From positions 5,394,001 through 5,458,000 of the forward strand of contig NZ_CP006704.1 of NCBI RefSeq assembly GCF_000739375.1: a DNA stretch of 64,000 nucleotides, given 5' to 3'. The notes below the pieces were generated by a model. The model saw only the letters and a list, made by a program, of their open reading frames with translations. It searched no databases and was not told the origin of the DNA. Positions 23,621 to 27,962 of the stretch are shown piece by piece. Made by a program: the position numbers and the translations under genes. This stretch comes from Comamonas testosteroni TK102 (GTDB lineage: Bacteria; Pseudomonadota; Gammaproteobacteria; Burkholderiales; Burkholderiaceae_C). Each line of letters opens with the position of its first letter. Positions within the stretch are counted from its first letter, which is position 1.

Positions 23621-23818
23621 ATGAGCATTCGCCTGACCCGCACTCTGCACCAGCTGCGCCCTCTGCTGCTGCGCGCCCGCGCCACGCCTTCCCAGGCAGC
23701 GCCCGCCGCACCGGCAGCCTTGCCGCAAGCGCTGGAACGGACGCTGGAGCTCGATGCCCTGACAAGCTGGCCCACGCACCGCATCCGCAGCTATCTGAGC
23801 AGCCGCAGCGTGCGCTGA
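23621..23818 (+). CDS. Small Arg-rich protein in the mgtA leader, unknown function
   Basis: A 65-aa ORF from ATG 23621 with a GAGGAG ribosome site at the right distance. The predicted protein is basic, with an N-terminal 'MSIRLTRTLHQLRPLLLRAR' amphipathic stretch, an Ala/Pro linker (about residues 22-35) and a C-terminal 'THRIRSYLSSRSVR'. There is no membrane segment and no family is recognised. It lies between the proposed promoter and the MgtL-like ORF, in the same direction as mgtA. The good ribosome site argues for a real gene. Low complexity and overlapping GC-rich frames argue for caution. Confidence 0.55.
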   Translation: MSIRLTRTLHQLRPLLLRARATPSQAAPAAPAALPQALERTLELDALTSWPTHRIRSYLSSRSVR

Positions 23819-23878
23819 GCAACCCGGTCGCGGACCGGCTCCGGACCGCTTTCACTCACTCTCAACCAAGGAACACGT

Positions 23879-24004
23879 ATGGATCCCGACCCTAGTCGAT
23901 CTTGCAGCGCGCCCCGTGCGGCGCGCTGTCAAGCCATTGGCCTGCGTGTGACCTTGAGGGCTGCACGCAGGAACCGGAACCCCGACCCGGGGCTGGACGC
24001 CTGA
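23879..24004 (+). CDS. MgtL-like Mg2+-sensing leader peptide candidate (41 codons, MDPDP start)
   Basis: ATG 23879 has an AAGGA site at 23868-23872 and opens a 41-codon frame beginning Met-Asp-Pro-Asp-Pro-Ser-Arg; a second NPDPG lies near its end. Enterobacterial MgtL, the leader peptide of mgtA, begins Met-Glu-Pro-Asp-Pro. Such alternating acidic-Pro codons destabilise translating ribosomes when Mg2+ is low, which switches mgtA on. Here the ORF is also upstream of mgtA. A perfect 9-bp hairpin (23905-23913 with 23920-23928) lies inside the ORF, and a ribosome that continued past the DPDP codons would melt it. Similarity of motif and position is seen directly. The mechanism is inferred. Confidence 0.6.
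   Translation: MDPDPSRSCSAPRAARCQAIGLRVTLRAARRNRNPDPGLDA
23905..23928 (+). promoter_or_regulatory. Hairpin inside the MgtL-like ORF
   Basis: CAGCGCGCC pairs perfectly with GGCGCGCTG across a 6-nt loop, covering codons 9-17 of the leader ORF. It is a candidate control hairpin whose folding would depend on ribosome progress through the DPDP codons. Confidence 0.55.
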
Positions 24005-24053
24005 TGCAGTAGCCGCGGCGGGCAGCTCCCGGGTCACCCCAAGGAGTATGCCC

Positions 24054-24377
24054 ATGCAACGCCTCGCCTGGCTGCGCGTGCTGCAACGCAGCCGCCCCAC
24101 CCCCCGCCTCGATGACACCACCCGCCACCATGGCCTGACCCATGCCGTGATCTCGGCACTGAGCGAGCGCCGCACCGATGTGCTGCGCCACCTGGTCGAC
24201 CGCCATGGCGCGCCCCTCATGGCCAGTGCCATGGCCAATCTGAGCATCCGCCAGCGCGCCGATGCGCTGTCGCTGCTGACCAGCGAGCAGCGCAGCCGCC
24301 TCGACGAGCAGCTGCGCTCGAGCCAGGCGCAGTTGCCATGGACGCAGCTCGCCAGCTCCGGCAAGACGCTGCACTGA
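24054..24377 (+). CDS. 107-aa protein preceding mgtA, unknown function
   Basis: A soluble, helix-rich, charged protein with no signal or membrane segment. Blocks such as 'VISALSERRTDVLRHLVDRHGAPLM' and 'LSIRQRADALSLLTSEQRSRL' suggest two helical hairpins. The start is ATG 24054, 7 nt after an AAGGAG site at 24041-24046; the ATG at 24048 is too close to it. The stop is 12 bp before mgtA, so it is almost certainly co-transcribed and may act in transport regulation. No family is recognised. Confidence 0.72.
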   Translation: MQRLAWLRVLQRSRPTPRLDDTTRHHGLTHAVISALSERRTDVLRHLVDRHGAPLMASAMANLSIRQRADALSLLTSEQRSRLDEQLRSSQAQLPWTQLASSGKTLH

Positions 24378-24389
24378 CGGGAGGCCGTG

Positions 24390-27137
<2,748 letters not shown>

Positions 27138-27242: not shown

Positions 27243-27962
27243 ATGCAATCCCTACAGAACTTCAATCTGCTCGCCACGCTGAACACAGTGCTGTGCCTTG
27301 TCGTGGCCTTTGTCTGCGGCAGCATCATCGGCCTTGAGCGCCAGATACGCCAGCGCACAGCAGGCCTGCGCACCAATACCCTGGTCGCCGTGGGCGCGGC
27401 CGTGTTCGTCGACCTGGCCATGCGCGTCTCGGGAGCTGACGGCGCCACGCGCGTCATCTCCTATGTGGTCTCGGGCGTGGGCTTTCTGGGCGCCGGCGCC
27501 ATCATGAAGGAAGGCGCCAACATCACGGGACTGAACACCGCCGCCACGCTGTGGGGTTCGGCCGCCGTGGGCGCCTGCGCGGGCGCGGGTCTGCTGCCGG
27601 AGGCCGGCATTGCCACCCTGTTCGTGCTGGCCAGCAACACCTTGCTGCGCCCTGTAGTCAACTACATCAACCGCCACCCTGTGGCCGAGCATGCCAGCGA
27701 GGCCACCTACTATGTCTACGTGATCTGCGGCCAGCAAGCCCAGGCCGATGTACGCGAGGGCATGCAGGAGCTGCTGGAGGCGGCCAACTACCCGGTGCGC
27801 GCAGTGGAAAAGCACGAAATCCCGCCGCACAACACCGAAATCGAGGCCGAGCTGTTCGCCACGGCCGTGCATGCCGAAGAGCTGGACCAGGTGGTCACGC
27901 AGATCGAAGCCTTGCCCGGCGTGCTGCAGGCCTTCTGGAACGCCGGACCGCAGAATAATTGA
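27243..27962 (+). CDS. mgtC: MgtC/SapB family protein
   Basis: Inner-membrane protein linked to growth and virulence at low Mg2+; 239 aa. The N-terminal part (about residues 1-140) has the MgtC/SapB signature 'CGSIIGLERQIRQRTAGLRTNTLVAVGAA', 'GVGFLGAGAIMKEG' and 'GLNTAATLWGSAAVGACAGAG', with several membrane helices. The C-terminal part is a cytoplasmic ACT-like domain of about 85 residues. In Salmonella MgtC inhibits F-type ATP synthase. Placement 105 bp after mgtA supports a shared low-Mg2+ regulon. The frame opens 17 codons earlier, but ATG 27243 gives the usual N-terminus. Confidence 0.93.
   Translation: MQSLQNFNLLATLNTVLCLVVAFVCGSIIGLERQIRQRTAGLRTNTLVAVGAAVFVDLAMRVSGADGATRVISYVVSGVGFLGAGAIMKEGANITGLNTAATLWGSAAVGACAGAGLLPEAGIATLFVLASNTLLRPVVNYINRHPVAEHASEATYYVYVICGQQAQADVREGMQELLEAANYPVRAVEKHEIPPHNTEIEAELFATAVHAEELDQVVTQIEALPGVLQAFWNAGPQNN

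Follow-up and report, generated by a model that had tools for sequence, protein, structure and literature searches.

Organization of the leader and its operon

The window, by which we mean the whole 64,000-nucleotide stretch of DNA analysed, contains a short open reading frame (ORF) with its own Shine-Dalgarno (SD) sequence, followed on the same strand by a small MgtE_N-like gene, mgtA and mgtC. Judged by its named relatives Delftia tsuruhatensis and Comamonas thiooxydans, the 6.06-Mb chromosome that holds the window belongs to the Comamonas/Delftia group. The features of the leader and the genes behind it are the following.

23868..23872, + strand: SD of the leader, AAGGA (from the sequence; AAGGA or AAAGGAG at the same place in relatives)
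23879..24004, + strand: leader ORF, 41 codons, Met-Asp-Pro-Asp-Pro start (from the sequence and conservation in relatives)
23882..23893, + strand: Asp-Pro-Asp-Pro, codons 2-5, presumed ribosome-destabilising (invariant in 15/15 orthologues, with synonymous changes at codons 2, 4 and 5)
23901..23933, + strand: stem-loop directly 3' of DPDP (-22.9 kcal/mol; comparable hairpins in many, not all, relatives)
24054..24377, + strand: first gene, 107-aa MgtE_N-like small protein (Pfam MgtE_N E 0.043, below the cut-off; iterated profile)
24390..27137, + strand: mgtA, P-type Mg2+ ATPase (Pfam E1-E2_ATPase, 1e-40; Cation_ATPase_N and _C)
27243..27962, + strand: mgtC (Pfam MgtC, 1.4e-35)

The leader peptide is MDPDPSRSCSAPRAARCQAIGLRVTLRAARRNRNPDPGLDA (41 aa, N-terminus MDPDPSRSC), and six nt separate AAGGA from the leader ATG. 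The first-pass annotation had described a 41-codon ORF with a good ribosome site and an MDPDP start, situated upstream of mgtA with a 107-aa gene in between, and all of these elements were present; the leader ended 385 nt before the mgtA ATG at 24390 (386 bp in that annotation). The likely ATG of the 107-aa gene (24054) lay 49 nt past the leader stop, and an alternative in-frame ATG at 24048 was closer to the SD. An iterated profile seeded with the 107-aa protein picked up the N domains of full-length MgtE. Its AlphaFold model (mean pLDDT 71.8; about 84-89 for residues 31-90) had no significant structural match in the PDB (best E 0.21), with FliG and MgtE domains among the weak ones.

The perfect 9-bp hairpin previously noted within the leader was present as part of the 33-nt stem-loop at 23901-23933, but it was not universal: of 63 distinct leaders, 30 had a z below -1 for folding of the region after DPDP (mean -1.03), and no hairpin followed DPDP in the Delftia-type leaders L008-L013 (z -0.2 to +1.7). 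A hairpin after DPDP was on these grounds rejected as part of the conserved core and is regarded as a feature of some groups. Nor did a second NPDPG near the leader end, also pointed out earlier, hold up as a peptide motif, since near relatives have NPVPG or NPAPG at this position; the stretch corresponds to the RNA segment P2 described below. Rfam gave no match at the gathering score, M-box included, in the window or in 18 leader loci.

Two further observations concern the leader and its surroundings. Where codon 6 encodes Ser it was AGT in 24 of 34 leaders, as against 1 of 98 Ser codons in three window genes, and codon 7 was CGA in all 15 orthologous leaders; a slow-codon or RNA constraint is possible at these positions. 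A 65-aa ORF with a good SD (23621-23818) lies just 5' of the leader, and its C-terminal end, SWPTHRIRSYLSS, is alike in L007.

Conservation of the leader at mgtA loci

MgtA was used as bait in 53 genomes of the genus, including for one of them (G027) a second contig (L089). The resulting orthologue set comprised 15 loci (L001-L014 and L089), each having an MgtE_N-like gene together with an mgtA that was 74-100% identical to that of the window. Codons 1-5 encoded MDPDP at all 15 loci despite synonymous changes at codon 2 (GAT/GAC), codon 4 (GAC/GAT) and codon 5 (CCT/CCG/CCC), and the C-terminal part of the leader varied freely. A whole-genome motif scan found ATG-GAY-CCN-GAY-CC only once in the 6.06-Mb genome, at the leader start, which together with the 15/15 conservation of MDPDP indicates that the leader is more than a chance ORF. 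More distant copies within the genus, found at the same place, began with MDPAP (L017, L018), MDLEPDP (L020) or MDPSS (L030). No M[DE]P[DE]P was present within 1.5 kb at 12 other genus loci (L015, L016, L019, L021-L029), of which L019 came without upstream sequence; at L015 and L016 a long ORF lay immediately 5' of mgtA, as in the RND-mgtA type, and the check extended as far as this ORF.

A protein profile detected an MgtE_N-like ORF upstream of mgtA at 31 of 169 mgtA loci (30 distinct, L009 being identical to L090), a count that is not fully independent because the profile was trained on leader-linked loci. The leader starts at these 31 loci comprised 27 MDPDP (among them the L118 copy, without a recognisable SD), two MDPAP, one MDLEPDP and one MDPSS. 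Among the best 80 named mgtA loci of the matches listed, four of which had under 1.5 kb of upstream sequence, M[DE]PDP occurred within 1.5 kb of mgtA at 11: one each in Delftia, Acidovorax, Cupriavidus, Pseudoxanthomonas and Sapientia and six in Stenotrophomonas (one of these without a recognisable SD). The Pseudomonas mgtA loci in this same set of 80 had no M[DE]PDP leader within 1.5 kb, and many mgtA genes do without the leader. Over 63 leaders the length ranged from 16 to 57 residues, with only the first five codons common across clades.

A second leader in the same genome

The genome carries a second leader, MEPDPHRCLCTALFPTHAWQKHCHVPPVRLPLENL (MEPDPHRCL..., 35 aa), with the SD GGAG on the minus strand (L264, G000:C1:1023392-1023285). 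The operon behind it consists of an MgtE_N-like gene, an RND adaptor, an RND pump, mgtA2 and mgtC2, with room for an outer-membrane factor in between. mgtA2 is 68% identical to the window mgtA. The leader stop is followed after 50 nt by the start of this second MgtE_N-like gene (profile E 3e-23), which has no clear SD.

Passages of a study of Comamonas testosteroni I2 under simulated microgravity (PMC10781756) report decreases for a run of genes encoding an MgtE-domain protein, mgtA and mgtC (JMRS01_600152-154; -7.16, -14.00 and -7.14 fold, respectively) and for mgtA with adjoining efflux genes (JMRS01_1050028-31; -5.35 to -40.50). Judged by gene order, these look like the same two operons as in the window's genome. 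Because the same passages also give decreases for corA (-2.71) and for two other RND sets (-11 to -23), the data speak for co-regulation and not for a specific or Mg2+ response.

Occurrence of the leader in context-free genome scans

A scan of the 53 genus genomes made without regard to context returned 48 MDPDP-coding sites, 34 with an SD and 14 without. The 34 SD-led sites preceded mgtA (16), mgtC (7), corA (5), mgtE (2) or an RND adaptor gene (4), as identified by Pfam for one CorA-like (CorA, 7e-41) and one MgtE-like protein (MgtE, 1e-31) and by tblastn to reference proteins for the rest. In the seven mgtC cases an MgtE_N-like gene was followed by mgtC with no mgtA between them. Downstream of the 14 SD-less sites there was no Mg2+-transport or RND gene in the stretches read, which extended up to about 4 kb.

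In 349 genomes of the family, SD-led [DE]P[DE]P was found at 30 sites in 28 genomes, counts that are lower bounds since the AGGA pattern misses SDs such as GGAG. MDPDP was encoded at 24 of these sites, and 23 of the 24 had MgtA, MgtC, MgtE or NRAMP (the last identified by Pfam Nramp, 2e-76) downstream on the same strand, including one (G183) with mgtA 6.3 kb downstream behind an RND operon; the remaining site (G052) had an RND operon only. Five of the six non-MDPDP sites lay in unrelated contexts (G104, G082, G121, G286 and G101; MEPEP, MDPEP or MEPDP with AGGA in front) and were taken as chance, four of the five falling in ORFs of at least 92 aa. The sixth (L240 in G172) combined an MDPEP leader with an MgtE_N-like gene followed by trxA-rho, and no Mg2+ transporter was found nearby.

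The order scan (300 genomes) yielded five sites: three already known, one in another family (L192) with the leader before a porin-porin-NRAMP operon, and one inside a 113-codon ORF that was taken as chance. Among 11 sites in the class scan (369 genomes), Mg2+ genes lay downstream at only two, both of the Comamonas type, and the 1.5-kb flanks of the other nine had no recognisable Mg2+ gene; two of these nine (L261, L262) lay inside long ORFs that by eye resemble the CBS part of MgtE. A reversed-pattern control also matched many genomes, so the signal resides in the SD, the ORF length and the place and not in the raw count. The comparison among relatives that the first-pass annotation had proposed as a check thus went in its favour, in that relatives have kept the MDPDP start and that it accompanies Mg2+ transporters from several families unrelated to one another. 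Its framing of the ORF as an mgtA leader of a betaproteobacterium proved too narrow on both counts, because the leader is specific neither to mgtA nor to betaproteobacteria.

Predicted alternative pairing of RNA segments between the leader and the first gene

Three RNA segments were delimited around the leader stop codon of the window:

23985..24001, + strand: P2, leader ORF end, able to pair with P3 in a hairpin spanning the leader stop codon (duplex -31.0 kcal/mol; cognate-pairing test)
24017..24034, + strand: P3, switch segment with P2 or P4 as possible alternative partners (cognate-pairing tests)
24036..24053, + strand: P4, segment holding the first-gene SD (AAGGAG at 24041-24046), able to pair with P3 (duplex -22.9 kcal/mol; cognate-pairing tests)

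Before the leaders were folded, four of 67 short ORFs (L257, L258, L260, L211/L237) were dropped, leaving 63. The distance from the leader stop to the next SD-equipped start was 37-60 nt in 53 of the 63 (median 44, IQR 43-46; 41 of the 53 within 41-50), a range that is partly by construction because its limits were set by filters (36-70 nt at first, later chosen from the list of loci). The start used here was the first SD-preceded ATG; for the window this criterion selects the ATG at 24048, 43 nt past the leader stop, instead of the one at 24054, which lies at 49 nt. This spacing held whether the first gene encoded an MgtE_N-like protein, MgtE, an RND adaptor or another protein or was a 44-45-codon ORF; leaders located 119-140 nt before mgtA in Acidovorax and Cupriavidus are examples outside the layout. 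The pairing tests did not include ten leaders (L035, L092, L093, L096, L177, L192, L199, L214, L248, L254), which had no first gene 37-60 nt away or no assignable SD start.

The 48 nt ending at the first-gene ATG had a mean z of -2.18 relative to dinucleotide shuffles in 43 loci with an MgtE_N-like first gene, many of them close relatives and five having the N domain of a full MgtE as the first gene. At least two of the four SD bases were paired in 40 of the 43, with stems that differed between clades. In the window's own group the SD-hiding fold was no better than shuffles (z -0.03 for L001; -0.70 to +0.70 for L002-L005).

Pairing between segments was assessed in fixed windows defined without folding, which replaced an earlier, partly circular test in which P3 had been chosen by folding. 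P1 ran from the leader after codon 6 to P2, P2 comprised the last 14 sense codons, P3 extended from the stop to 20 nt before the ATG, P4 covered the SD and ATG, and P5 was the gene start. The cognate duplex energy of each locus was compared with those of mismatched loci in 20,000 permutations. Of 40 loci, 18 were non-redundant; in these, both P2xP3 (z -5.8) and P3xP4 (z -6.5) were significant (p<5e-5), with no permutation as good, and the seven control pairs (P2xP4, P1xP3, P3xP5, P2xP5, P4xP5, P1xP4, P1xP2) were not significant in these 18 loci. A second set of 13 other loci, in 12 of which no MgtE_N-like gene was detected and in one of which MgtE lay at a greater distance downstream, gave in its 9 non-redundant members z -3.9 for P2xP3 (p<5e-5) and z -5.2 for P3xP4 (p=5e-5). 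For all 26 non-redundant loci combined, the values were -7.6 and -9.2, respectively. Some control pairs were marginal, namely P2xP4 (p=0.04) and P1xP4 (p=0.013) in the second set and P1xP3 (p=0.027) in the combined set. At least 4 P3 bases were common to the P2 and P4 pairings in 40 of 40 loci (mean 11.3), and the use of the same P3 bases makes P2:P3 and P3:P4 mutually exclusive. In the genome's second leader (MEPDP), P2:P3 (-15.8) was slightly weaker than P3:P4 (-17.4).

Proposed mechanism and alternative explanations

Four things read from sequence, namely the ORF, how well it is conserved, its association with Mg2+ genes and cognate P2:P3 and P3:P4 pairing across diverged loci, point to a cis-acting leader ORF subject to translation abort, coupled to a three-segment RNA switch on the ribosome-binding site (RBS) of the first gene of a Mg2+-transport operon; we put the probability of this reading at roughly two in three. 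Within this reading we infer that ribosomes drop off at DPDP in a Mg2+-dependent way, as well as which way the switch works and what part, if any, Rho plays. Under ample Mg2+ a ribosome would pass Asp-Pro-Asp-Pro, reach the leader stop and mask P2 (the last ~14 codons); completed translation would thereby break P2:P3, leaving P3 free to pair with P4 and hide the first-gene SD, and the unread message downstream would perhaps be exposed to Rho. At low Mg2+, ribosomes would drop off at codons 2-5, P2:P3 would stay paired across the stop codon and the SD would be open, so that the small MgtE_N-like protein, MgtA and MgtC would be produced. The guide for this direction is MgtL, whose ribosomes dissociate at EPDP at low Mg2+; by analogy with it the DPDP leader would sense Mg2+ and switch the genes on when Mg2+ is low.

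Thermodynamics was rejected as a source for the sign of the switch. By ensemble folding of 41 loci, mean SD exposure was 0.33 with an aborted and 0.27 with a fully translated leader (p=0.13), the SD being more open on abort in 12 loci and less open in 7, and for the window's own leader exposure was 0.14 when aborted and 0.50 when covered, which goes against the model. A separate folding of 15 loci gave no clear sign either. A Rho site was set aside as the main output. In 49 of 63 leaders (0.78) the highest C-minus-G 60-nt window lay above the 95th percentile of the background, a figure that scores C-richness and not Rho and is suggestive only; averaged over the 63 leaders, C-rich, G-poor stretches fell between +10 and +90 and between +170 and +290 relative to the leader start. 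Given such stretches near the leader, Rho may act on untranslated message as a second layer.

A different input is conceivable: stalling at the Pro codons would drive the same RNA switch, and the leader would report on charged tRNA-Pro, on EF-P or on some other aspect of proline translation instead of on Mg2+. Pro3 and Pro5 are indeed as well conserved as the acids, and passages of PMC8092293 report that Salmonella mgtP responds to charged tRNA-Pro. Acidic residues 2 and 4, however, are just as invariant across the 15 orthologues; MDPAP and MDPSS, as variants, retain Asp2-Pro3 while losing Asp4 or Asp4 and Pro5; where leaders ahead of RND and MgtE genes have DP/EP expansions, these bring in acidic residues as well as prolines; and the linked operons nearly all carry Mg2+ transport genes. 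We therefore regard a proline sensor as unlikely.

The sign of the switch could also be reversed: on completing the leader, the ribosome would open P3:P4 and couple translation to the first gene, so that drop-off would turn the operon down. The position of P3, 0-17 nt past the leader stop and thus within reach of a terminating ribosome, would suit this arrangement, as would the more open SD of the window's leader when covered (0.50 vs 0.14). Yet it leaves the co-variation of the leader end with P3 unexplained and would lower Mg2+ uptake at low Mg2+, and we judge it quite improbable. A function of the 41-aa product in trans as a small protein could be argued from the conserved ORF and its good SD, but we give it very little credence because only the first five codons are common across clades and the remainder, in leaders of 16 to 57 residues, is clade-specific. 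A chance short ORF, as might be suggested by the 14 of 48 genus MDPDP sites that lack an SD and lie in unrelated surroundings, is refuted by the comparative counts, SD-led MDPDP short ORFs preceding Mg2+-transport or RND genes at 34 of 34 genus and 24 of 24 family sites.

Comparison with known Mg2+-responsive leaders

Our preferred reading, translation abort in cis with an RNA switch on the first-gene RBS, belongs to a kind already known and defined, in the passages of PMC11282234 and PMC8092293, by MgtL and mgtQ: an acidic/proline leader that aborts translation before a Mg2+ transporter gene. In MgtL of Escherichia coli and Salmonella, as described in passages of PMC11282234, a short ORF 5' of mgtA encodes acids at positions 2 and 4 and prolines at positions 3 and 5 and comes with alternative RNA structures; ribosomes dissociate at EPDP at low Mg2+, and changing Glu2 and Asp4 abolishes mgtA expression. 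The window likewise has an SD-equipped short ORF in the same direction upstream of mgtA, with the acidic and proline residues present at the same positions (DPDP in 15/15 orthologues). Residues 2-5 are EPDP in MgtL, DPDP in the window leader and EPDP in the genome's second leader. The analogy with MgtL drawn in the first-pass annotation thus fits in its residues and parts company in its output: the same passages describe MgtL translation as controlling a Rho-dependent terminator, whereas here the co-varying arms point to the first-gene SD, about 44 nt past the leader stop, and not, or not only, to a Rho terminator. Unlike at MgtL, an MgtE_N-like gene intervenes, and the leader type also serves mgtC, mgtE, corA, NRAMP and RND operons.

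Salmonella mgtQ resembles the present leader in that acidic codons impede translation and that access to the RBS of the following gene depends on which of the alternative stem-loops forms (passages of PMC8092293). Here, too, an acid-coded short ORF with alternative structures able to hide the next RBS was found across loci, the window's locus taken alone being no better than shuffles. According to these passages, however, mgtQ encodes 8 aa with Asp2 and Glu5, has no DPDP, lies between mgtC and mgtB inside the operon and overlaps region 1 of its RNA, whereas the window leader has 41 aa and precedes the first gene. Leader ORFs with alternative stem-loops before a Mg2+ operon are also described for mgtM/mgtP of Salmonella mgtCBR (passages of PMC3641672), but those exert transcription control and respond to ATP and charged tRNA-Pro (passages of PMC8092293).

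As one cis element ahead of CorA, MgtA, MgtE and NRAMP-related Mg2+ genes, the M-box (ykoK; passages of PMC4072509) has a comparable range; it is a metal-binding RNA, whereas here the presumed sensor is a peptide-coding ORF, and the DPDP leader accordingly looks like a peptide-coded counterpart. The M-box of Mycobacterium tuberculosis controls a small upstream ORF through a translational platform and Rho (passages of PMC12810186), the nearest published parallel we found, as far as those passages go, to an SD-then-Rho layout. For Thioalkalivibrio a different mgtE motif is named in PMC11109978, and the passages of that paper matched by term contain no mgtA uORF. The literature matches listed included no description of such leaders in Comamonas, Delftia, Variovorax, Cupriavidus or Stenotrophomonas, in a search with most subscription papers and preprints outside its scope and hence no proof of absence.

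The present leader differs from MgtL and mgtQ in its SD output tied to the leader end, in being followed by an MgtE_N-like gene, in the variety of transporter families it serves and in how widely it is spread among taxa. The DPDP leader with P2, P3 and P4 is probably a transferable ribosome-based Mg2+ sensor of Burkholderiales and some Xanthomonadaceae, with an M-box-like role before five non-homologous Mg2+ transport families and first-gene translation as its output, and would mark an NRAMP branch and an RND family as belonging to Mg2+ homeostasis. If so, Mg2+ sensing by nascent-chain destabilisation of the ribosome would be a regulon-wide device before unrelated transporters rather than an enterobacterial speciality, its expression platform, an SD switch co-varying with the leader end, would differ from the Rho platform of MgtL, and the leader would serve as a simple genomic marker predicting NRAMP, RND and small MgtE_N-like genes of Mg2+ homeostasis.

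Additional features of leader-linked operons

NRAMP genes with a leader occurred at L192, L239 and L242-L244, together with porin-like genes at L192 and L242-L244 and with mgtC at L242-L244; these NRAMP genes are candidates for NRAMP-related Mg2+ transporters. The operons at L178, L182, L238 and L241 encode exported-looking proteins of about 230-255 aa which by eye have a common DDA...PG.C.LE.W stretch, the one at L241 having no Pfam match. Expanded leaders were observed at L196, L197, L209 and L251: MDPDPDPDPDPDPARR and similar sequences stand in front of RND operons in Delftia-type genomes, and MDPDPEPEPEPEPAC stands ahead of mgtE-mgtC.
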